Source: Kalymmatonema hyalinum WJT4-NPBG1 (lineage in GTDB: Bacteria; Cyanobacteriota; Cyanobacteriia; Cyanobacteriales; Nostocaceae). Taken from it: a stretch of 37,284 nucleotides of DNA. A program made the position numbers and the translations under genes. The stretch spans positions 1 to 37,284 of the forward strand of contig JAHHIB010000086.1 in assembly GCA_019359075.1 (NCBI GenBank), in the 5' to 3' direction. Under the pieces are notes generated by a model that was not told the origin of the DNA, made no database searches, and was given only the letters and a program-made list of their open reading frames with translations. Each line of letters begins with the position of its first letter. Positions within the stretch are counted from its first letter, which is position 1. This document shows, in pieces, positions 5,733-17,946 of this stretch.

Positions 5733-7184
5733 TTAACTCAAGTACACAGTGTCAACTTGAACCAGTTCAAACTCACAAGCCCTAGAAGCAGGTTCTACGC
5801 TGAATGGCGCAAAAGTTACTAAAGGTAAAAATGTGGGGTTTTGCAATAGTTCTTTTGCTAACAAGAATCCAGCGATTGTCCAAGTTTGATATTTTCTGGC
5901 TTGTTTGCCCATCAGTCGCCCTTTCTTACCGTCGTAATACTCTGGCCATTCGTCTAGATGCAAGCGTGCTTCTGCAATTTCAACAGCCTTATGTCCAAGC
6001 TCTATTCTATTGGTTTTCACAGCTGCTGCTGACAACAACCATAATAAGACTGGCCAACTTCCACCATTGTGATACGACCAAGGTCTATTTTTCGGGTCAC
6101 ATCCAGTGACAATTCTGTACTCGTCGTTTTCCAAAGCTGGGAAACAAAGTTTCATGGGCATATCTCCCACCAAGTCATCCCATCTCTCTTCGATGAGATT
6201 CATAATTGCTTGTGATTGCTCTTCACTCGTCAGATCTGAAACAACAGCCACTAAGTTTCCTAAAGAAAAGAAGCGAGTATCTAGCTGTGAAGGTCCAACA
6301 TTACCAACGAGAAAACCACCTTTTCTTGGCAGCCATTTGTCCAATTCATAATAGGGCAGCGAATCTGCATATATATTGAAGGGATTCGCTGCTGCTTTGC
6401 CATACTCTTCACTCTTAAAGCGATAGATCTTGTTTAAGCGATGAAGATCCATCCAATAATACTGGCGAATATGAGTCCGTAGAAGCGGCAAGCGATTATC
6501 GATAGCTGTAACAATATCTTCGTTACCCTGACAAATCAGCAGTTCTCTAGCAGCACGCAATGCAGCAAAAAATAGAGCTTGAATTTCCAAGGGATGTCCA
6601 TAGATACCCATACGACGGTCAATCATACAAGCGCCGTCTGGAACCAAGATCGTTGGATACATATCAAACCGAGTTGCCAAACACAGTTCCATAATCAATC
6701 TGATACCGTGTTGGAATTGAGGTTGATAAGCCAGAGAGAAATCTTTAGTAGCAACTACATAAGCACGCAATAAAATAACCCACCACAAGCAGGAATCAAC
6801 AGGTGTGACTCGCGCAATAGCGTGTTCACCAAAATCTGCTTCTAGATATTCTTCCTCACCGTCGTCACAGACAACTTTAAAGCTAGCTGGCATTAAACCT
6901 CGGCCCGGCTTATAAGCATCTAATTGCCTTTCTTTCGGCTGTAACTTTAAGGTTTCTTCTAAAAAGTTGCGGACAATATCCGTTCTACCTTTCATTAGAA
7001 AAATAAGAGCAGAAGATACAAAATCCCGAACAAAACACTGATCGTAATTCAGCGCCTCTACGGTTGCATCATAAGCAGCTATTGTCCCTACAGGACGACC
7101 TTTATAATAGAGAATCGACTTTTCTAGCGCTGTCCACGCTTCTTGTTCTATACTTTCACTCGATGCCAAGTCATCTAATTGCAT
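5733..7184 (-). CDS. Alkaline/neutral invertase, glycoside hydrolase family 100
   Basis: A 483-residue soluble enzyme that hydrolyses sucrose to glucose and fructose, the usual route of sucrose breakdown in filamentous cyanobacteria and their heterocysts. GH100 hallmarks run through the length: [10 protein letters not shown] near residue 46, [16 protein letters not shown] with the probable catalytic Asp130, [13 protein letters not shown] near residue 366, and [12 protein letters not shown] followed by [14 protein letters not shown] near 422-450. Length matches Anabaena InvA/InvB. No signal peptide. An AGGAG lies about 13 bases before the ATG. The upstream 1.7 kb lacks a clear gene, so it is probably transcribed alone. 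Confidence 0.92.
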
Positions 7185-8953: not shown

Positions 8954-10039
8954 ATGTTAAAAACCTCTCCAACTGTGAAAACTGCCTCAGTTGAACAACT
9001 GCTTAACCTTTGGTCACAGCGCTTCATACTTAACTTGTCTTCCCTATCCTCAGGAAATCTGTCGGCTGACAGTTCTTTGCAGGAAGCGGCTTCACCAGAA
9101 GGCAAAGCTTTTACCGCTGCTAAGTTGAAGGATAACGTGCTAGATGTCAACTGCCAAATGGCATGGATTCAAACAAAAGCCCTTTATGGATATATACCTA
9201 ATGTCTTAGATTTAAACGAGGCGAGGTTAATCACTCAATTTGCCTTCCGGGTTTATAGGAAGCTCTTAGAAATTTACCAACAGCAGTCCCTGGAAAACAA
9301 CTTACTGACACTCGCAGTTGAGGAGAATGTTTCTGTGTTGGGGATAAGAGCAGTTGAAGAGTTAGCATCCGCCTTGGAACCAATATTAATGGTATTTCAA
9401 GAGCAGCACTTAGCATCCAAGGACTGGCGTGCCCTTGGTTTTATGACTACGCAGTTAAACTTCAGCAATAAGTTAATTCTCAAGAAGCTGACACCTCCTG
9501 AGAAAGTACTGCTGACTCCCTACTTAAAATTTGTCGAAGAGCAAATTGCTATGCCTTGGCATCGAGTTTGCGCTGCTGCTGCCAAGCATGAGTTAGGTTC
9601 GCCGATGTTAACGCTTGTACAGCAAATGTTACCTGTTTGTGAGGACATTGCTCAAAGCGTTTACCGCCGGCTTGTGGAATTATTGCCCAATCATCGTAGC
9701 CGTAGGGGAGGCTTGAGCGATCCGGAGGTTACATATTCATGTCTTCGTGACTTGAATATGTTCCAAGCTTATATATGGCTGTGTTTGTTAGAGCAGAGTA
9801 TGACTCCATTGGAGACAGAACTACTTCCTTTATGCCAGATGGTTGTACAGGGTGTGGAAATTCCGTGGGAAATGACAGAAAAATGGTGCCAAGTGTTGGG
9901 GGATGAGATGATGAACTGTGTTAACCCAGAACAACAGGATCTATTGCTGCCTTACATTGAAGGAATGCAGCAGCTATTCTTTAAGGAACGCGCCCGCTTG
10001 GGTTTCAGCAAAGAAACCGTTGAAAGAGTTGAAGTGTAA
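8954..10039 (+). CDS. Conserved-looking cyanobacterial protein of unknown function
   Basis: A 361-residue protein, predicted mostly helical and soluble, with no signal peptide or membrane helix and no motif I recognise. It is leucine- and glutamate-rich with regular amphipathic segments (for example about residues 75-190), suggesting an all-alpha scaffold. The ATG is preceded by GGAACAGGAAA, a fair ribosome binding site. It is convergent with the WD40/J-domain gene, the two stop codons being 14 bp apart. I cannot assign a function. Proximity alone does not place it in the PspA-like cluster. Confidence 0.75.
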   Translation: MLKTSPTVKTASVEQLLNLWSQRFILNLSSLSSGNLSADSSLQEAASPEGKAFTAAKLKDNVLDVNCQMAWIQTKALYGYIPNVLDLNEARLITQFAFRVYRKLLEIYQQQSLENNLLTLAVEENVSVLGIRAVEELASALEPILMVFQEQHLASKDWRALGFMTTQLNFSNKLILKKLTPPEKVLLTPYLKFVEEQIAMPWHRVCAAAAKHELGSPMLTLVQQMLPVCEDIAQSVYRRLVELLPNHRSRRGGLSDPEVTYSCLRDLNMFQAYIWLCLLEQSMTPLETELLPLCQMVVQGVEIPWEMTEKWCQVLGDEMMNCVNPEQQDLLLPYIEGMQQLFFKERARLGFSKETVERVEV

Positions 10040-10053
10040 GGTGTGCTATTGGA

Positions 10054-11862
10054 TTAACTGTTCAATTTGTGGCGGTATTCTTTATAAGCTCGGTTAATTG
10101 CTTGCATCATGGCTTTTGCACTGGCAGAACTGTTGATATCAGGGTGATACTGCCTTGCTAATCTTAGGTAAGCACGTTTTACATCCTTTGGAGAAGCAGC
10201 CTTTTCTATGCCCAAGACTTCCCACCATTTCTCAGATGGCATAGACTCAGGTATGAGTTCATCATTACTACCAAGCATTTGACGCCAAACCTTGATGATG
10301 CCGCCTTTACCCCCGCTCACGAGTGTTTTTCCATCACAAGTGAAGGCAATGGGACTGCACCCAGCAAGGGTTTGTAGCAGTTTTCCTGTCCGTAAATCCC
10401 AAATATTGATGATGCCGTCTGTGCTGCTACTGGCGAGGGTTTGTTTATCGGGGTTGATGGCAAGGGACACAACTGCTGCTGAATGTCCAGTGAGAGTATC
10501 GAGCAATTCGCCAGTGCCGAGATTCCACAGTTTGATTGTGGTGTCTGTACTACCACTGATTACAGTTTGACCGTCTGGGCTGATGACAACTGTATTAACT
10601 GCTTTTAAATGTCCATTAAGAATACGGGGCTGTCCCCAAGTTTTTAAATCCCAAAGTCTGACAGTTTTATCAGCACTACCACTGGCAAGGATTTTTCCAT
10701 TGGGACTGAAAGCAACAGACAAAACGGCGTCAGAATGTCCATTTAAGGTACGTTTTAATTCTCCTGTGTAACGTCCCCAAAGTCTAATAGTCTTATCGCC
10801 ACTACCACTTGCAAGAATTGTCCCATCCGGGCTAAAGGCAACTGAGTAAACAAAGCCAGTATGACTGTAGGAAGAGTTTAAATAAAAGAATGTACAGAGA
10901 AATTTTTTTGTATCCAGATGCCAACTGCTGATTTTGCGAGCGACACCGCCACTGGCAAGTATTCTACTATCAGGGCTAATAGCAACAGATAAAATCGCCT
11001 CTTCTTGCCCAGCAAAGGTGTACAGCCATTTTCCAGTTTTTAAGTTCCATAGACGAGTTGTTCTGTCATTGCTTCCACTAGCCAGAGTTTGATTATCGGG
11101 GCTGATGGCGATCGCATTCACTGCGGCTGTGTGTCCGCAAAGAGTCTGTACACATCTCCAAGCTTCGGGTGATGTTGGTTGGACGGATACCACTTCTGCT
11201 TCAATATTAGGAGTAGAGGTTTCAGTTTTTGTCTTGAATTCACCCTTGAGCGCTTGTAACTCATCCTCAACTTCCAAAGCTGCAAATTTTTGGTTGAGGT
11301 CTTCACCAGATAAAAATGCCTCTAACTCCATCACTGCTTCGTAATAGGCATCCATCTGCAAGACTTTTTCTTCCATCCGGTCAAAAACCTGTGCTGGAGT
11401 TTCCACACTTCCAGACTCGTCTAGTAGCTTGGCAATACCATAGGCGGCGAGTCCAACCACACCACCAATTACTGCCATAGGTACTGTACCAATACCAACA
11501 GCTAAACCTATTTTGGGTGCAACTAATCCCATACCGCCGATAACACCAGAAACACTAGCACCGCCTATTGCGCCAACTCCCATTGCACCAAAAGCAGCAG
11601 CATCTCCCTGTGCTATTGCCTTGAAAGCACCATAAGCCGCTGCACCAACTACAGCGCCAGCACCAACTACAGCGCCAGCACCAACTACAGGAGCCGTCCC
11701 AATCCCAACTCCTCCAAATCCTCCCACTAATCCTATCCCGCCTATGGTTGCGGAAACACCAGCGCCCGCTACGCTTCCCCCAGCAATAAAGGCTGCGCCT
11801 GTTGTGGAGTTTTGTCCCACTTGTTGTCGTCCCCTGTAGTTTAACTTACCTAACCTACTCAC
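10054..11862 (-). CDS. Glycine-zipper / Vipp1-tail / WD40 / J-domain fusion protein
   Basis: A 602-residue multidomain protein. Residues 22-148 are two glycine-zipper units joined by AQGDAA, probably membrane-inserting. Residues 155-207 match the last helices of PspA/Vipp1: [14 protein letters not shown], then [17 protein letters not shown], as in the 15456-16571 protein. Residues 236-530 form seven WD40 blades, each with a SPDxxxLASG and (L/I)W core. The seventh lacks its first strand. Residues 544-602 are a J domain with His573-Pro574-Asp575. Inferred role: anchored adaptor that senses a partner through the propeller and recruits Hsp70 to PspA/Vipp1-type assemblies. A GAGAVV duplication at residues 61-72 reflects an 18-bp tandem repeat. 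Last gene of the leftward cluster. Confidence 0.88.
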
Positions 11863-11911
11863 ACCCCATCAGTCACAAAGGGGGTAGTAAACCCGGATTC
11901 GGTATTACTGC

Positions 11912-12196
11912 CTAGATACCTGCTTTCTTAGCTGCATAAAAAGCTACTTCAGCGCTTTTGTCAATAAAATCAAATTCAGGCTTAGAACCATGAAAAGGTT
12001 TAATACCAAGTACTTCTACTTTGTATTTTTGTTCAAGTTTGAGACCTTCTGGTATGCAGGTAAAACCTATCTCTGAAGCATCAACATTCTTGATCCAGAA
12101 TTCGTTACAAAAAATTGCAGGTCTGTCATAGAAAGCTACTTTTAATTTGCCAGATTCGCTGCTGATATAGAATTTAATCTCCTGTACGTAAGCCAT
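11912..12196 (-). CDS. Small protein of unknown function in the PspA-like cluster
   Basis: A 94-residue soluble protein of alternating beta strands (KFYISSESGKLKVAFYD, GFTCIPEGLKLEQKYKVEVLGI) ending in a short alanine-rich helix. It has no signal peptide or membrane helix. It lies 49 bp upstream of the WD40/J-domain gene on the same strand and 89 bp downstream of the NTF2-like gene, so it is probably in one transcription unit with them. No family was recognised. Coding status rests on sensible amino acid composition and compact spacing. Confidence 0.6.
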   Translation of the reverse strand: MAYVQEIKFYISSESGKLKVAFYDRPAIFCNEFWIKNVDASEIGFTCIPEGLKLEQKYKVEVLGIKPFHGSKPEFDFIDKSAEVAFYAAKKAGI

Positions 12197-12285
12197 GTTT
12201 TCGCTTATCCAATTTGTTGTATTACTAGGTTTACAGTCTTAAAAAATCTTTAGTAATTTGACTAGTTTTTTAGCTTTTATTAAAT

Positions 12286-12744
12286 TTATTCCATATTGGT
12301 AATAGAGAATAAACCAGAATTTGTATTTCTTTCTATAAGCATAGATATTCGACTGTTATTCCCAAATAATTGGGATGCTAAATTAATTCCTAAAAAGTGA
12401 AGATTCAGGGTAGCTCTAAGTACAAGGTAAACTTCATTTTCACCTCTTATTTCTGGTGCTTTACATACGTCAATTTCTAGAGAAGGGTATACAACTGATG
12501 GTATTTTTTGAAAAACTTCCTGAAACCAGGACAGTATCTGTTTTTTATTCTGGTTTACAAAAGACTTACTATAATAATTATCAGATATTAAGTTCTGAAT
12601 TCTTTGTACATCTTTTGAGTCAATGGATTTTTTGAAATCCCTAAAAAATAGCAAAATGTCTCCTTGTAAACCATAAGGATTCCATCTAGTTTCATGTGGT
12701 TCACGAAATAAAGAAATTCCTGCTTGAAAAACTTCAAATAACAT
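12286..12744 (-). CDS. Protein of unknown function, possibly NTF2-like fold
   Basis: A 152-residue protein. The first 55 residues carry a helix with ETRWNPYG and FFRDFKKSIDSKDVQRIQNLIS. The rest alternates strands and helices ending in a strand-rich C-terminus. The pattern of an opening helix followed by a small alpha+beta cone is like SnoaL/NTF2 proteins, but this is a guess from secondary structure. It follows the HNH gene after 17 bp. A truncated copy of its first ~85 codons is at 14806-15078, the product of a tandem duplication. Confidence 0.6.
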   Translation of the reverse strand: MLFEVFQAGISLFREPHETRWNPYGLQGDILLFFRDFKKSIDSKDVQRIQNLISDNYYSKSFVNQNKKQILSWFQEVFQKIPSVVYPSLEIDVCKAPEIRGENEVYLVLRATLNLHFLGINLASQLFGNNSRISMLIERNTNSGLFSITNME

Positions 12745-12761
12745 AATAATTCCACTCAGCC

Positions 12762-13139
12762 TTATTTTTTCAAAAAACGCGCTCCCTTACCCCGATTGCA
12801 ATCTATACACAGTGTTTGCAAGTTGCTAATGTCGTTACTGCCACCTTTGGAGAATGGCACTATGTGGTCAACTTCTAGCTCGATTTGCCGCGCGCTGATG
12901 CCACAAAAAACGCATTTGTAACCGTCTGTGTGTAAAACTGAAACACGAACTGATTTGCGAATGTGGCGGGAGCGTTTACTACTATCTTGCTTTGCTTTAA
13001 ATTGGGGTTTGGTCGCAGCAGGTTTTTTAGTCTTTGGTTTTTTTGGTGTATCAGCTTTTAGACTATTAGCCTGATGAATCAAATCCCGAATGACACCACG
13101 CACCAGTTTTTGCAGTGGGTTGGAAGGCTGTTTTGTCAT
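12762..13139 (-). CDS. HNH endonuclease domain protein
   Basis: A 125-residue protein. After a lysine-rich N-terminal 65 residues comes a compact HNH fold: YKCVFCG (first zinc CxxC), [13 protein letters not shown] with the catalytic His in the DH pair, [10 protein letters not shown] with the HNH asparagine, and CIDCNRGKG (second CxxC). The start codon overlaps the stop of the glycine-zipper gene by one base (TAATG), so translation is probably coupled. The basic tail suggests nucleic acid binding. Whether it is a nuclease acting on DNA or RNA, or a relic of a mobile intron, is not visible. A half copy persists at 15096-15248. Confidence 0.85.
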
Positions 13140-13540
13140 TACTTGTTAAAGAGCCTGTTCAACCCATAAGCTGCTAGTCCAACAACTGCACCAGCTGCTA
13201 CAACCGGAGCAGCTCCGATAGCCACAGCAGTTCCTCCTAGTGCTAAACCCATACCACCAACTACAGCCGCAACCCCTGCACCTGCTGCTGCTCCGCCTGC
13301 CACTGCACCTATAGCTGTCGCGTCTCCCTCTTCTATTGCCTTCTTAGCTCCGTAAGCGGCTGTACCCACAACCGCACCAGCAGCAGCAACCGGAGCCATC
13401 CCAATTGCCACGCCCCCGAAACCTCCAACTAATCCCATGCCGCCAACAACTGCGGATACACCCGCACCCGCTACGGTTCCTCCAGTGACTAATGCTGCAC
13501 CTTCTACTTTATCTTTCAGTTCTTCGTCTTGTAGTGTCAC
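13139..13540 (-). CDS. Glycine-zipper two-unit membrane protein
   Basis: A 133-residue protein that is almost entirely a duplicated glycine/alanine-rich module. Each ~57-residue unit reads roughly [18 protein letters not shown] then AIGxAPVxAAGAVVGxAAYG, and the units are joined by EEGDAT. The same module occurs in the WD40/J protein and in the PspA-like protein at 15456-16571. Glycine zippers pack membrane helices tightly, so membrane insertion is likely. The start codon is GTG. A conserved CTTTA element lies 61 bp upstream, and the HNH gene overlaps its stop by one base. Confidence 0.8.
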
Positions 13541-13601
13541 TATTTTGTCTTTTAATTTCAGAAATATTACATATACATTAAACGAGAGAACTGTTGTTGC
13601 T

Positions 13602-13651
13602 CAGTAAGAATAAATGAAATTTTTCTTAGTTCTCTTAAAGCTTGTTTAAAG
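13602..13651 (-). promoter_or_regulatory. 11-bp-spaced CTTTA element upstream of the glycine-zipper gene
   Basis: On the minus strand CTTTAAACAAG is followed 11 bp later by CTTTAAGAGAA, and the element ends TTCATTTATTCTTACTG. It lies 61 bp before the GTG start. Direct repeats with an 11-bp period are typical of OmpR/PhoB-family response regulators. The regulator is not identified. Confidence 0.55.
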
Positions 13652-13669
13652 GTGTAATATAAAGTAGTC

Positions 13670-14656
13670 TTACATTTGATCGAGTTGCTGTCGCAGTGTT
13701 TCTAGTTCTGCATCCACTACCGCACTTGAGCCAGATAGTGTTGTTTGTTGAGCAACTGCTAGTTCTGAATTTTGTGGTATGGCAGATTGAGATAGCATTT
13801 TTTGTACATTTTCTAGAGCAATCAAGTTTTGTCTGAGTAGAGTGAGTACTGTTTCCTGCTGCTGAATTTGAGTTTTGAGAACAACCGCAATTTTACTTTG
13901 AACTGTTTTATCAACTATGGCTTGTAAGGCTAGATTATCATCGTTGTTTTGCAGAGCTATCTGAGCTTTTTTGTTCCAGTCTTGAGCTGCTTCTTTAGCC
14001 TGGTCATAATTTTTTTGGATTTGTTCTTTACTGGTAAAAGTACTATCCACAGCCTTTTCCGTCTCTAAGATAGCCGTCTCTAAAATTGCGGTGCAGTCTT
14101 TTATTGCTGGGGAGCCATCTTTGAGTGTAAGTGGTGGAAACATCTGCTCTTTGAGTCGCTTCAATTCTTCGTCAATATCTTCAAAGTTGACCGTAATCAA
14201 TTCAAAATTTTGATTATAACCATTTGGTTGTGAAATAGCTTCTGCTGGAGCTTCAGTGTCCAAAAGTTTCTTTTCCACGTGTTCAAAAGCACTCGTAGTG
14301 CTACTGGGATTAAACTTTCTAGGCAAAACCTTATTTTCTGCTTCAGAAACCTTACTCTCCCAAGAAGTTAGGTTGTGCTTCAGGGTATCTACTTGGGTTG
14401 CTTGCTGCTTTACAAGGCTTCTCAGCCTATTGGCTATTGCTTCGTGGCGTTCCTTGTTGAATTGTGCTTGACGAGCTAAATCCTGATGACCTTCTTTTAG
14501 AGCAAGTTGATACTGTCTTTCCCAGCTATCCGCTTCAGCTTGAGCCTGATCGTAATCTCTTTGAGCAATTAGTTGGGCTGCGATCGCATGTGCAGTAGCT
14601 GTACGTAATTTCCCTAAAGCATAGTCTGACGAGTTAGTGGCGTCGTATTGTCCCAT
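13670..14656 (-). CDS. Tandem PspA/Vipp1-like coiled-coil protein without membrane helix
   Basis: A 328-residue, mostly coiled-coil protein. Residues 15-172 follow the PspA/Vipp1 plan: helical hairpin with AQAEADSWERQYQLALKEG and DLARQAQFNKERHEAIANRL, then SAFEHVEKKLLD and EDIDEELKRLKEQM, matching the last helices. Residues 190-290 repeat the hairpin (YDQAKEAAQDWNKKAQIALQN, DNLALQAI), and the protein ends in a second LETLRQQLDQM helix. The N-terminal amphipathic helix and the PEKLL motif of Vipp1 are missing. It may cap or co-assemble with the glycine-zipper PspA-like protein encoded upstream. Confidence 0.8.
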   Translation of the reverse strand: MGQYDATNSSDYALGKLRTATAHAIAAQLIAQRDYDQAQAEADSWERQYQLALKEGHQDLARQAQFNKERHEAIANRLRSLVKQQATQVDTLKHNLTSWESKVSEAENKVLPRKFNPSSTTSAFEHVEKKLLDTEAPAEAISQPNGYNQNFELITVNFEDIDEELKRLKEQMFPPLTLKDGSPAIKDCTAILETAILETEKAVDSTFTSKEQIQKNYDQAKEAAQDWNKKAQIALQNNDDNLALQAIVDKTVQSKIAVVLKTQIQQQETVLTLLRQNLIALENVQKMLSQSAIPQNSELAVAQQTTLSGSSAVVDAELETLRQQLDQM

Positions 14657-14714
14657 AAGTTTGTTTGAGTTAGCTGATTAAGCAAAGCATAAACCAGTAA
14701 TCTTTTACCGTCTC

Positions 14715-14762
14715 GTAACAATCAATGAAATCTTGCTTAATGGTTCTAAAGTTTGTGTAAAG
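14715..14762 (-). promoter_or_regulatory. 11-bp-spaced CTTTA element upstream of the tandem PspA-like gene
   Basis: On the minus strand CTTTACACAAA is followed 11 bp later by CTTTAGAACCA, and the element ends TTCATTGATTGTTAC. It lies 58 bp before the ATG at 14656. It is a duplicate of the element at 16657-16704. Confidence 0.55.
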
Positions 14763-14805
14763 TAAAGCCTTGAGATATCTTATGTTATTAGTTAATAAAC
14801 TGCTC

Positions 14806-15078
14806 TTAATATGACCTCGCGTATACAACCGATGGCATTTTTTGAAAAACTTCCTGAAACCAGGATAGTAGCTGTTTTTTATTTTGCCTCACATAAGACT
14901 TACTGTAATACTTATCAGATATTAAGTTCTGAATTCTTTGTACATCTTTCGAGTCAATTGATTTTTTGAAATCCCTAAAAAATAGCAAAATGTCTCCTTG
15001 TAAACCATAAGGATTCCATCTAGTTTCGTGTAGTTCACTAAATAAGCAAATTCCTGCTTGAACAATATCAAATAACAT
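14806..15078 (-). pseudogene. Truncated copy of the NTF2-like gene
   Basis: The frame encodes about 85 residues nearly identical to the N-terminus of the 12286-12744 product (ETRWNPYGLQGDILLFFRDF shared), then a few residues of unrelated sequence read through the duplication junction at 14820/14821. It keeps the ATG but lacks the C-terminal ~65 residues, so it is most likely non-functional. Confidence 0.8.
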
Positions 15079-15095
15079 AATAATTTTACTCAGTA

Positions 15096-15248
15096 TTATT
15101 TTTTCAAAAAACGCGCTCCCTTACCACGATTGCAATCTATACACAGTGTTTGCAAGTTGCTAATATCGTTACTGCCACCTTTGGAGAATGGCACTATGTG
15201 GTCAACTTCTAGCTCGATATCTTTCAGTTCTTCGTCTTGTAGTGTCAC
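15096..15248 (-). CDS. Deletion-born 50-residue chimera: glycine-zipper start fused to half an HNH domain
   Basis: A deletion joins codon 10 of the copied glycine-zipper gene ([13 protein letters not shown] start at 15248) in frame to the last 40 codons of the HNH gene ([15 protein letters not shown] onward), ending at the original HNH stop. The HNH histidines, asparagine and second CxxC remain. The first CxxC and the basic N-terminus are lost. The conserved CTTTA element is 61 bp upstream, so it could be expressed. Activity is doubtful and it may simply be a relic. Confidence 0.45.
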
Positions 15249-15309
15249 TATTTTTTCTTTTAATTCCAGAAATATTACATATACATTAAACGAGAGAACT
15301 CTTGTTGCT

Positions 15310-15359
15310 CAGTAAGAATAAATGAAATTTTCCTTAGTTCTCTTAAAGCTTGTTTAAAG
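15310..15359 (-). promoter_or_regulatory. 11-bp-spaced CTTTA element upstream of the HNH chimera
   Basis: This is a near-identical copy of the element at 13602-13651, including CTTTAAACAAG and CTTTAAGAGAA with an 11-bp period. It was carried by the tandem duplication and keeps its 61-bp distance to the GTG start at 15248. Confidence 0.5.
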
Positions 15360-15455
15360 GTATACGCTACGCTCTTCGGTAGCTTTTTAAAACGTTTTGG
15401 ATGAGAAGTGTATAAGTTACATTTCATCCAATTGTTTTCGCAGCGCTGCGAACTC

Positions 15456-16571
15456 TTAATCAACGACTTGCTCAGATGTGGAGCTAGATGGTTGCTCACA
15501 AGGTTGTGCTTGTTGTGCCGATGTGGGAAGTCCCAGTGCCATTTGCTCTTTCAAAGCTGCCAATTGATCATCAATGTCGCCACTAGATTCCAAAGCGGCG
15601 AATTGGCTTTCTAAATTGGCACTAGCCAATTCTGCTACCGATTGAGTGTGGGCTTCTTGCAGCAAGACTTTTTCTTCCATTCGCTCGAAGGCAGCTAAGG
15701 CACTGCTACTACCCAGCCGCCCAACAGTGCTTTGCAGGTGCGCTTCGGCTTTGGCAGCAGCTATCCGCGCCTTGAGCATTACCTTTTTCGCCTTTGCTTC
15801 AGAAACCTTAGTTTCAAAAGTGAATAGCTTACTCTGGAGGCTATCCACTAGAGCGGTTTGCTCATCCAAGTTAACTTTGAGGGTATTAGCATTCTCAGCA
15901 AAAATCTTCTTTCGCTCCAGCGCTTGCTGTGCCAGATTATCATCGCCCTTTTGCACAGCCAACAAAGCGCGGCGTTGCCACTTGTTCTCTTCAGCTTGGG
16001 CTTGTTCGTAGTGTTGCAGAGTGCGTTTTTTAGCCGCTATCACTGGGACTACAGCCTGACGAAACTTGAGCAAGTCTTCCTGCATATCCTCAACAGCCAA
16101 GTCTAGCAGCTTTTCTGGGTCAGTTCCTTGTTGGAGTAGTTGATTCAAAGCAGCTATACCAAGCCCAGCGACAGAGCCAGCAGCTGCCATAGAAGCCATG
16201 CCAACACCAAAAGCTGTTCCCCCTACGGCTACTCCTACACCGCCAATCGCAGCAGAAACACCAGCACCTGCTGCTGCTCCAATTGCTGCTGCGCCAGCAG
16301 ACGAAGCATCCCCCTCTACTACTGCTCTGATAGCCTCATACAAACCAAGACCAGTTAAGGCACCAGCAGCAGTCAAGGGAACAGCACCAACGCTAAAACC
16401 AGCACCTTTTGCCAGTATTCCTATTTTGCCAATAGAAGCACCAGCTATGCCTCCTATCGCCGCAAACGCTGTAGCAGTAGCATCTTTATATTTATCTGTG
16501 TCAATTTCACGATTAATATGGTTTAGTTCAGCCTTAACCATTTGGCTAATGCGGTGAAACAGTTGTTCCAT
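15456..16571 (-). CDS. PspA/Vipp1-family protein with an inserted glycine-zipper membrane module
   Basis: A 371-residue member of the PspA/IM30/Vipp1 (ESCRT-III) family with an unusual insertion. Residues 1-25 are the amphipathic helix (MEQLFHRISQMVKAEL). Residues 31-147 are two glycine-zipper units joined by VEGDAS. The family body resumes at TDPEKLLDLAVEDMQ (150-164), with the hairpin at 165-275 (AQAEENKWQRRALLAVQKGD) and the last helices ALAAFERMEEKVLLQ (291-305) and DIDDQLAALKEQM (332-344). In ordinary Vipp1 the first helix leads directly into AEDPEK. The insertion should anchor the protein in the membrane rather than leave it peripheral. AAAGGAAA precedes the ATG. It shares a 181-bp promoter region with divergent bciB. 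Confidence 0.88.
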   Translation of the reverse strand: MEQLFHRISQMVKAELNHINREIDTDKYKDATATAFAAIGGIAGASIGKIGILAKGAGFSVGAVPLTAAGALTGLGLYEAIRAVVEGDASSAGAAAIGAAAGAGVSAAIGGVGVAVGGTAFGVGMASMAAAGSVAGLGIAALNQLLQQGTDPEKLLDLAVEDMQEDLLKFRQAVVPVIAAKKRTLQHYEQAQAEENKWQRRALLAVQKGDDNLAQQALERKKIFAENANTLKVNLDEQTALVDSLQSKLFTFETKVSEAKAKKVMLKARIAAAKAEAHLQSTVGRLGSSSALAAFERMEEKVLLQEAHTQSVAELASANLESQFAALESSGDIDDQLAALKEQMALGLPTSAQQAQPCEQPSSSTSEQVVD

Positions 16572-16656
16572 AGCTCTATATTTCCTTTAGCCTGTCAAGC
16601 TTTTAAACAGCAATTTGTACCACCGCTAGTTTAGGCTAGTGAACTGTTACAGCTTC

Positions 16657-16704
16657 GTAAGAATCAATGAACACTTGCTTAATACTTCTAAAGTTTGTGT
16701 AAAG
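16657..16704 (-). promoter_or_regulatory. 11-bp-spaced CTTTA element between the PspA-like gene and bciB
   Basis: On the minus strand CTTTACACAAA is followed 11 bp later by CTTTAGAAGTA, and the element ends TTCATTGATTCTTACG. It lies 85 bp before the PspA-like ATG and 48 bp before the divergent bciB ATG, so it could act on either gene. Confidence 0.55.
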
Positions 16705-16752
16705 TAAAGCTTTGGAATGTCTTATGTTCTTAGTTAATAAACTGCCCTTAAT

Positions 16753-17946
16753 ATGACCTCGCTGTCTCCTCACAACAAAGCCAAAGCCCTCAAGCCCAGC
16801 AGCCGTCGCCCTGCAAAAGAACTCTGTAGCGAGTGCGGGCTTTGCGATACATACTATATTCACTATGTCAAGGAAGCCTGCGCTTTTATTAATCAGCAGA
16901 TAGGTGAATTGGAAGAACAAACCCACACGCGATCGCGCAATTTAGACAACCCTGATGAAGTATATTTTGGTGTTCATCAAGACATGATGGCGGCGCAGAA
17001 AAAGCAGCCTATCCCTGGTGCCCAATGGACGGGCATTGTGAGCACCATTGCTATTGAAATGCTCAATCGCGGTATTGTTGAAGGTGTAGTTTGCGTACAA
17101 AACACCAAAGAAGACCGCTTTGGTCCCATGCCCGTCATCGCTCGAACCCCAGAAGAAATACTGGCAGCTAAAGTAAACAAACCAACGCTCTCGCCTAACC
17201 TTTCGGTGTTGGAACAGGTGGAAAAATCGGGGCTAAAGCGGCTGTTGGTGATTGGTGTTGGTTGTCAAATTCAGGCATTACGAGCTGTTGAAAAACAACT
17301 TGGCTTAGAAAAGCTGTATGTTTTGGGAACGCCTTGTGTAGATAATGTTAACCGCGCTGGACTCCAAAAATTCCTAGAAACGACCAGCAAATCGCCTGAT
17401 ACAGTCGTGCATTACGAATTCATGCAGGATTTTCGCGTTCACTTCAAACACGAGGATGGATCAAGCGAAACCGTACCTTTCTTTGGACTGAAGACTAACC
17501 AACTTAAAGATGTGTTTGCCCCCTCGTGCATGAGTTGCTTTGATTATGTCAATTCTTTGGCGGATTTAGTCGTTGGTTATATGGGCGCACCTTTTGGCTG
17601 GCAGTGGATTGTGGTTAGAAATGAACAAGGCAAGGAAATGTTGGACTTGGTGAATGACCAAATAGAAACTCAGCCAGTCATGTCGAAGGGCGATCGCAAA
17701 GCAGCAGTGCAACAAAGTATACCCGCCTACGACAAAGGTGTCACCCTTCCGATGTGGGCAGCGAAACTTATGGGTGTGGTTATCGAAAAAATTGGTCCTA
17801 AAGGTTTAGAATACGCTCGGTTCTCGATTGATTCCCACTTCACCCGTAATTACTTATATGTAAAGCGGAATCATCCAGAGAAATTAGAAGCGCACGTTCC
17901 AGAATTTGCCAAGCGCATTGTTGGACAGTATAAATTGCCAGAATAA
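16753..17946 (+). CDS. bciB: Ferredoxin-type 3,8-divinyl (proto)chlorophyllide 8-vinyl reductase
   Basis: A 397-residue flavin and iron-sulfur enzyme of the FrhB (F420 hydrogenase beta) superfamily that reduces the 8-vinyl group in chlorophyll synthesis. LCSECGLCDTYY gives Cys25, Cys28 and Cys31 of a [4Fe-4S] site. GVGCQIQALRA and LGTPCVDNVNRAGLQKFL are conserved in BciB and its plant relative HCAR. APSCMSCFDYVN near residue 256 adds a CxxC. Length and motifs fit cyanobacterial BciB (Slr1923 type). It diverges from the PspA-like gene. Its first 10 bases were copied to 14811-14820 by the tandem duplication. Confidence 0.9.
   Translation: MTSLSPHNKAKALKPSSRRPAKELCSECGLCDTYYIHYVKEACAFINQQIGELEEQTHTRSRNLDNPDEVYFGVHQDMMAAQKKQPIPGAQWTGIVSTIAIEMLNRGIVEGVVCVQNTKEDRFGPMPVIARTPEEILAAKVNKPTLSPNLSVLEQVEKSGLKRLLVIGVGCQIQALRAVEKQLGLEKLYVLGTPCVDNVNRAGLQKFLETTSKSPDTVVHYEFMQDFRVHFKHEDGSSETVPFFGLKTNQLKDVFAPSCMSCFDYVNSLADLVVGYMGAPFGWQWIVVRNEQGKEMLDLVNDQIETQPVMSKGDRKAAVQQSIPAYDKGVTLPMWAAKLMGVVIEKIGPKGLEYARFSIDSHFTRNYLYVKRNHPEKLEAHVPEFAKRIVGQYKLPE

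Follow-up and report, generated by a model that had tools for sequence, protein, structure and literature searches.

A fluid cyanobacterial gene cluster around a J-domain/WD40 protein with a Vipp1 segment suggests a membrane-surface module that includes an exchangeable nuclease

The disassembly of the bacterial ESCRT-III-like coats formed by Vipp1/PspA proteins is poorly understood, and the accessible text of a survey of the PSP system states that how PspA homologs without an associated AAA ATPase regulate their assembly is unknown (PMC11237479). In Chlamydomonas, HSP70 acts with CDJ2 and CGE1 both to assemble VIPP1 and to take it apart, a task in which E. coli DnaK can stand in for HSP70, according to the available part of the report (PMC6882379). 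The PSP survey, in the same accessible text, also records PspA-family proteins with chaperone-like neighbors (Ravi et al. 2024, PMC11237479), and a survey of cyanobacterial WD40 proteins has, in its available sections, DnaJ-domain proteins among the products of WD40-gene neighbors (PMC5587647). A nuclease at the membrane is known from the antiphage protein SNIPE, which, in the portion of the paper at hand, combines a conserved nuclease with varied N-terminal membrane-targeting regions (PMC13190303). Here we describe a locus in which parts of these kinds are encoded on one strand. It lies in a 37,284-nucleotide stretch (the window) of the 8.4-Mb assembly of Kalymmatonema hyalinum WJT4-NPBG1 (contig JAHHIB010000086.1), where the genes I, a remnant block, F, E, D, C, B, and A follow each other on the minus strand from 16571 down to 10054. 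As judged from sequence, this variable cluster of filamentous cyanobacteria may serve to repair or guard the cell membrane, and we read the locus as a fluid membrane-surface module around A, in which shared tags would gather a Vipp1 polymer, Hsp70, and a nuclease at the same place (probability about 0.42).

Gene A (10054..11862; like all other cluster features, on the minus strand) encodes 602 residues in which a glycine-rich module (11413..11808; labeled GZ below) is followed by a Vipp1/PspA C-terminal segment (11221..11409, residues 152-214), a WD40 propeller (10270..11169, residues 232-531; PF00400, 7.7e-72 over 7 stretches), and a J domain (10057..10233), which DnaJ models match over residues 546-594 and in which the HPD motif is confirmed intact. 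The 63-residue Vipp1 segment, found by profile search, is a shared part beyond those listed in the initial annotation of this DNA. A profile built from the segment in A proteins matched, among 984 targets at E<1e-3, 58 PspA/Vipp1 open reading frames (ORFs) as well as 24 A proteins, which were largely the profile's own sources, and had no unrelated matches; the best matches reached E values of 1e-14 to 1e-12. By profile similarity, then, the tail of A is a true Vipp1/PspA segment, and A carries this C-terminal segment only, without the Vipp1 hairpin. The GZ module of A rests on repeat and alignment evidence and contains uncharged stretches of 68, 29, and 27 residues. In the AlphaFold model the propeller is good (block-mean predicted local distance difference test score, pLDDT, mostly >80), the J domain is fair, and the GZ module (pLDDT <50) and the tail are bad. 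A classical DnaJ was rejected as an identity for A: that match is confined to the J domain, its scores fall far below the cut-offs, and there is no whole-length match.

Alignments indicate that A is a conserved family. Two glycine-rich patterns, applied to one genome per species (84,980 species), led to 79 named loci (best 80 of 87 relatives), every one of them cyanobacterial; four without a usable A ORF were dropped, leaving 75 A loci, many of which lie on short contigs and some of which are the same genome under two handles (e.g., L039 and L133). The GZ, WD40, and J parts stand in one ORF at 61 of the 75 loci and not in one ORF at the remaining 14, some of these being at contig ends. When window A is aligned with full-length A from the loci of 22 relatives, H573-P574-D575 is invariant in all 23 sequences, as are many glycines and, within the Vipp1 segment, R162-M163-E164, and the ratio of nonsynonymous to synonymous substitution rates (dN/dS) of A is 0.27-0.41 against four relatives. 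A profile of GZ plus tail matched in 32 of 292 genomes drawn from the phylum, some of the matches being other GZ proteins. The gene also seems to be duplicated in some genomes, a second WD40-J gene accompanying A at L216 (3807-6797) and L179 (2054-5537).

The module of A recurs alone in E (13139..13540, 133 aa) and within I (15456..16571), as the initial annotation had noticed. Alignment scores among the three lie 12.5 to 23.8 standard deviations above those of 500 shuffles of equal composition; this comparison rules out a compositional artifact, and the modules are homologous beyond composition at the sequence level. The three are also connected at the DNA level by 148-nt repeats (72% and 66% identity), and E is made up of a two-fold internal repeat (z 14.2). 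The modules are long uncharged stretches with 44-62% Gly+Ala. A strict glycine zipper, the motif by which they had been named, is not upheld: the G-x3-G spacing was reached by 1155 (A), 395 (E), and 78 (I) of 2000 shuffles, and E has no Pfam match at E<=1, so that the term survives as a label only. A second small glycine-rich ORF (~75-95 aa), which may be a third component, lies beside several GZ genes or GZ+nuclease pairs (L213 5716-6379, L206 2074-2304, L190 7208-7432, L183, and L135), and in genome G041 (L196 7020-9049) a TPR protein with its own hydrophobic N-terminal stretch comes after a single-repeat GZ ORF.

Two of the cluster proteins derive from Vipp1 itself. I, whose sequence identifies it as a Vipp1 derivative, consists of a start region, the glycine-rich module, and the Vipp1 hairpin and tail; the PspA/IM30/Vipp1 family domain is present (PF04012 helical domain, 1.2e-41, residues 137-343), and the nearest solved chain is Vipp1 (6zvr, 4e-63), the best chain named "Chloroplast membrane-associated 30 kD protein" scoring 1e-21. 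It begins MEQLFHRISQMVKAE, an amphipathic start (5 of 1000 shuffles reach it), and a short GZ-PspA protein at L131 begins MGLGDRISRIIRANLND; the alpha0 N-terminal helix of the family has a MGLFDRxxRV-type motif, according to the accessible part of PMC13051332. Window I ends 13 residues short of the version in Scytonema sp. NIES-4073. F (13670..14656), earlier described as a tandem PspA-like coiled coil, has two Vipp1-type hairpins in one protein (PF04012, 6.9e-23, 3 stretches), and both of its halves match Vipp1; the full helix set is absent, the best stretch opening at profile position 38, and the tail is degenerate (E 0.32 in the window). In PHROGs, none of I, F, E, C, and B has a match at E<=0.01.

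The tail was not detected at E<1e-3 in F or in the short GZ-PspA proteins, most of which are A-linked (best F 0.002), and is present in nine long GZ-Vipp1 forms (1e-5 to 6e-15); the comparison leaves out L130 (a broken A, not a GZ-PspA), contains some F rows that are fragments, and has no A in view at L046, L049, and L105. Since F and the short GZ-PspA proteins show no tail at this threshold while A carries one, A would supply it in trans to its tail-less partners, which the distribution suggests without proving. GZ-Vipp1 genes also occur in other company. At L199 6786-9139 (G077) such a gene is followed, 35 bp on, by one with a weak NucS match (E 1.4e-4, below cut-off), and GIY-YIG genes lie upstream, which makes a further pairing of PspA-like and nuclease parts; G019 has, in a prophage-like region (L040 8906-19266), a GZ-Vipp1 gene 140 bp before a 3024-aa tape-measure gene (PHROG 2335, 5.6e-25).

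The other half of the cluster includes a predicted nuclease. D (12762..13139) joins a predicted amphipathic N-terminal anchor to an HNH nuclease domain (PF01844, 5.4e-15), and its start overlaps the stop of E by 1 nt. At eight loci (L111, L112, L128, L131, L133, L137, L141, and L153) the nuclease gene shares 1-10 nt with the end of the GZ or GZ-PspA gene ahead of it, two fused GZ-PspA genes being among them, and L153 keeps the GZ-PspA - HNH order although the two genes stand on the other side of A. The N-terminus that D shares with its relatives is strongly amphipathic in each of 15 HNH proteins (0 to 13 of 1000 shuffles reach it), and D is probably attached to the membrane through it. In several genomes the D-type N-terminus is joined instead to another domain, marked by the pattern GRIDILT...IEVK...GQ, which by eye we take to be PD-(D/E)XK-like; this second nuclease domain has no Pfam match and in NCBIfam a single weak match to NucS (E 0.0065, below cut-off). 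The 26 distinct anchor proteins (19 HNH and 7 PD-(D/E)XK-like; an HNH-like ORF without anchor at L155 is excluded from HNH counts) thus combine a constant N-terminus with a variable catalytic C-terminus, as polymorphic toxins do. GZ is flagged as the upstream neighbor of 21 of them. The other five comprise L121, at a contig end; L183 and L135, where an 85-aa neighbor counts as GZ only at a looser cut-off; L191, where a chance ORF was picked as the neighbor although GZ is present; and L150, with no upstream GZ. One row of the anchor alignment (L206) was trimmed at a wrong position, and its protein is still recovered.

Most of these anchor loci were retrieved through GZ, a bias from which genome searches with D and with the second nuclease are free. 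The D search matched 79 of 100 genomes, seven of them from the anchor onward (window included), and in all seven a GZ ORF or match lies at most ~150 nt upstream; when the lists were compared by eye, none of the HNH matches without the anchor lay within 10 kb of GZ, except the D remnant in the window. The second nuclease matched 16 of 283 genomes, seven with the anchor, eight without it, and one (L242) as a 41-residue remnant with a stop, which is left out of the anchorless count. Each of the seven PD-(D/E)XK-like proteins with an anchor (the query counts among them) directly follows GZ by 2-33 bp, and GZ is absent from the 3-kb loci of all eight anchorless relatives; the query had itself been chosen next to GZ, and all seven positive genomes come from a single family. 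E itself has a dN/dS of 0.07-0.28, and viral contigs yielded six weak HNH relatives. On this evidence of linkage and architecture, the HNH gene is more than a bystander: it is one member of a coupled gene pair in which the nuclease domain is exchangeable, and such a unit suggests a DNA-directed role.

The closest named relatives at the locus are Scytonema sp. NIES-4073, S. tolypothrichoides VB-61278, and Nostocales cyanobacterium HT-58-2. Across the 75 A loci, a bciB/HCAR-type gene (16753..17946 on the plus strand in the window) is in view upstream at 43 and divergent from A at all 43. Among solved chains, 7-hydroxymethyl chlorophyll a reductase comes nearest to its product (5dqr, 1.6e-139; PF04432/PF04422), no NCBIfam model matches at cut-off, and we take the gene to be of the bciB type. 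The slot between it and A holds alternatives: F, a glycine-rich Vipp1 of the I type, or the E-D pair. One or more of the F, GZ-PspA, and HNH genes are in view at 34 of the 75 loci, as 19 F ORFs (in 18 loci, the split gene of L157 counting twice), 5 GZ-PspA ORFs, and 14 HNH ORFs. All 38 lie on the strand of A and 36 of them upstream, and 15 of the 19 F ORFs are its immediate neighbor. The commonest partner is F without the GZ+nuclease pair (18/75), and F never occurs together with HNH or GZ-PspA at any of the 75 loci, an exclusion that may partly reflect ancestry, F loci being mostly of Nostoc and Calothrix types. The linkage of GZ, HNH, and A recurs in Limnofasciculus, order Coleofasciculales (L179). 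GZ-Vipp1 lies adjacent to and divergent from bciB in G097 and is again divergent from it in G226, where one GZ ORF and three small ORFs separate the two. The interval of some loci also contains genes that are presumably HicA/HicB-like, PIN-domain, and alpha/beta-hydrolase-like.

That the window holds all of these contents can be explained by comparison with two relatives. NIES-4073 has the order bciB-I-E-D-C-B-A, with I, C, and A broken, and G001, whose locus carries a deletion, has bciB, the first third of F, and then directly the end of A. The window is like NIES-4073 on the I side, continues with remnants of the E start, the D 3' part, and the C 5' part (14821..15364, including a 90-aa ORF at 14806-15078 and a block at 15099-15364), then shows a second upstream element and F like those of G001, and ends with E-D-C-B-A again. 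The two elements, U1 (16638..16762, between I and the bciB-type gene) and U2 (14696..14820), are 86% identical, and the repeat includes the first 10 nt of the bciB-type gene. U1 matches NIES-4073 at 120/123 positions and G001 at 111/125, and U2 matches G001 at 116/125 and NIES-4073 at 105/123. The simplest account of these matches is that the window apparently consists of two haplotypes in tandem, and for this reason it would hold both alternative contents and the bciB-side region twice. The shared upstream element of the initial annotation is accordingly real as a repeat, but it gives no independent evidence of co-regulation and was rejected as the sign of a regulon, since its differences match two different relatives. 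Measured against NIES-4073, the five cluster genes compared have a synonymous divergence (dS) of 0.06-0.15, bciB has 0.27, and the other flank, dn361, has 0.13; because that flank is also low, the comparison lends weak support to recombination. In the pairs compared, dN/dS is 0.07-0.41 for all seven window genes and 0.04 for bciB. Decay of the locus is nonetheless frequent. NIES-4073 is a natural A-disrupted strain: at L039, A is interrupted at ~10264-11468 by ~1.2 kb with transposase-like ORFs, presumably IS630-like, and I at ~6638-7104 by ~460 bp.

The two remaining small genes were among the unknowns counted in the initial annotation, which had rightly placed them on the same strand as A, E, I, F, and the HNH gene D. 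C (12286..12744, 152 aa) probably has an NTF2-like fold, at low confidence: the model has a pLDDT of 61, and its top PDB matches are mostly NTF2/cystatin-like (best E 1e-4, TM about 0.5). It is labeled in 3 of 14 HNH loci (L111, L128, and L137), and its relatives among 100 genomes are the NIES-4073 copy, with an internal stop, and a 31% relative in one further genome. B (11912..12196, 94 aa) has no Pfam match, shows a dN/dS of 0.18-0.31, and is labeled in three named loci. A 361-aa protein with a weak phycobilisome-domain match (8954-10039, plus strand; PF00502, 2e-7) flanks A and lies near the locus in several relatives too.

These parts could work together as follows. The GZ modules would insert into the membrane or self-associate there, marking one site, at which I and F would build or modify a Vipp1/ESCRT-III-like coat. 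A has both J-domain features and a docking segment and so may be the J protein of this coat: it would dock through its Vipp1 segment, a part missing from most of the PspA-like partners linked to A, and would use its J domain to recruit DnaK for coat turnover, as HSP70-CDJ2 does with VIPP1 in Chlamydomonas. The membrane-held nuclease would act on nearby DNA, most plausibly DNA entering via a breached envelope, as its predicted anchor and the analogy with SNIPE suggest. The presence of a Vipp1 segment, a Vipp1 paralog, and a J domain at one locus argues for the handling of a membrane polymer, and the membrane remodeling first proposed for the cluster stands to this extent; the nuclease half suggests a DNA-directed role that the proposal had not considered. 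Overall, the link to the membrane is well supported by sequence, a common action of the cluster products is likely, and defense against DNA entry is a serious possibility by sequence and analogy. A more specific version, in which the locus responds to envelope breach, the GZ protein and its exchangeable anchored nuclease cutting the entering DNA, Vipp1 derivatives with the same tag sealing the breach, and A recruiting Hsp70 and dismantling the coat, is rather doubtful, as is the corollary that two shared address tags unite polymer, nuclease, and chaperone.

Several observations weigh against a module around A. No partner gene is in view at 41 of the 75 A loci (22/43 among those that show bciB), which means that A can do without its partners nearby, and both GZ+nuclease units and, in several genomes, full-length GZ-Vipp1 also occur away from it. 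The genome-neighborhood survey thus found linked rather than scattered genes, as the initial annotation would have it, and the homologous modules favor its view that the products act together; one fixed system was not found, F keeping apart from GZ-PspA and HNH throughout the 75 loci. Toxin-antitoxin-like and other genes also occupy the slot, so that some of the co-location may be a hotspot effect. The proposed complementarity of tails has exceptions: window I and NIES-4073 I keep theirs while sharing the locus with A, the tail of window F is degenerate rather than missing, and that of one other F comes near the threshold. The structure model of A is unreliable over the GZ module and tail. Finally, the loci of NIES-4073 and G001 are broken, so the system is dispensable there, and the module looks useful but dispensable.

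Some of these facts would fit a response to membrane or thylakoid stress alone, in which A and I/F form a lineage-specific Vipp1 and co-chaperone set expressed with bciB and the GZ+nuclease pair is an unrelated passenger. The constant divergence of the bciB-type gene from A speaks for it, as do the GZ-Vipp1 genes divergent from bciB in G097 and G226, genomes of other families, and the frequency of F without the nuclease pair. The overlaps of the nuclease gene with GZ or GZ-PspA genes at eight loci, however, couple nuclease and PspA-like parts directly, and L153 preserves their order even where they have changed sides, so that we hold this explanation to be somewhat unlikely. A set of effector and immunity proteins is a far weaker contender. 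The pairing of a constant anchor with two alternative nuclease domains would suit a polymorphic effector E-D-C, and C, directly behind D with a predicted NTF2-like fold of low confidence, would be the immunity protein; yet C is labeled at 3 of the 14 HNH loci, is interrupted by a stop in NIES-4073, and has one distant relative among 100 genomes, which makes this reading highly improbable.

The variability of the slot invites a further explanation, namely, an insertion hotspot beside bciB, into which F, GZ-PspA, GZ+nuclease, and toxin-antitoxin genes were acquired independently, GZ modules spreading between genes with no joint function. Apart from the variable contents, the putative toxin-antitoxin-like genes, and the exclusion of the others by F, the low dS of the cluster relative to bciB looks as if the cluster had moved, but the dS of dn361 is low as well, and bciB may simply be the odd one. 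The uniform strand of the 38 partner ORFs and the upstream position of 36 are more ordered than random insertion would be (a comparison of related loci without a formal test), A and I have the Vipp1 tail in common besides GZ, and the linkage of GZ, HNH, and A reappears in another order. We therefore consider a pure hotspot unlikely and retain the membrane-surface module around A as our tentative reading. If it holds, a bacterial J protein bearing a piece of Vipp1 would be a direct genetic handle on coat disassembly, GZ and its anchored nuclease with an exchangeable catalytic domain form a compact two-gene unit that may defend the cell from entering DNA, and membrane repair would be tied to DNA defense, since nuclease and Vipp1 parts meet repeatedly at one locus.

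Comparison with described systems places the parts among known kinds. None of the cluster proteins has, among the matches listed, a full-length match to a PADLOC defense model: D is matched mainly in its HNH part by DpdF, PtuB, ZorE, and others (best 1.1e-8; 25 of 45 matches listed), A matches HEAT-ARM_XIII (2.8e-23) with its best stretch in WD40 residues 337-498, F and I reach 0.0099 and 0.037, and B, C, and E have no match. D was also rejected as a SNIPE, neither GIY-YIG nor DUF4041 being among the matches listed for it (one listing giving the best 25 of 50). In the literature covered, which includes few subscription papers and in part accessible sections only, no description was found of the combination of PspA/Vipp1, a glycine-rich module, DnaJ/WD40, and HNH. 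The main text of the PSP survey contains DnaJ, WD40, zipper, and HNH zero times each (PMC11237479), PspA and glycine occur zero times in the accessible text of the cyanobacterial WD40 survey (PMC5587647), and in the available part of a paper on conflict systems DnaJ appears solely in another context, the FNIII proteins of GAP1-N2 systems (PMC7159879).

Against this background the locus resembles each of its nearest counterparts in one respect and departs from it in another. With SNIPE it shares a nuclease at the membrane; SNIPE, in the accessible text, unites GIY-YIG and DUF4041 in one protein (PMC13190303), whereas here, as known from sequence, the N-terminus is constant, the nuclease varies (HNH or PD-(D/E)XK-like), and the glycine-rich partner is separate. 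With HSP70B-CDJ2-CGE1 it shares a J protein tied to the Vipp1 polymer, reported for CDJ2 in the part available (PMC6882379) and inferred for A; the likeness drawn is one of proposed role, and A joins J domain, Vipp1 segment, WD40, and GZ in one chain. With Vipp1/IM30 (PF04012) it shares the hairpin and tail in I, two hairpins in F, and the C-terminal segment in A; unlike Vipp1/IM30, I has a glycine-rich module between start region and hairpin, F opens at profile position 38 and adds a second hairpin, and A is a J/WD40 protein without a hairpin. The catalytic parts are thus all of known kinds, and it is the fusion in A, the GZ-Vipp1 protein, and the pair of GZ and exchangeable anchored nuclease that, within the literature searched, appear undescribed.

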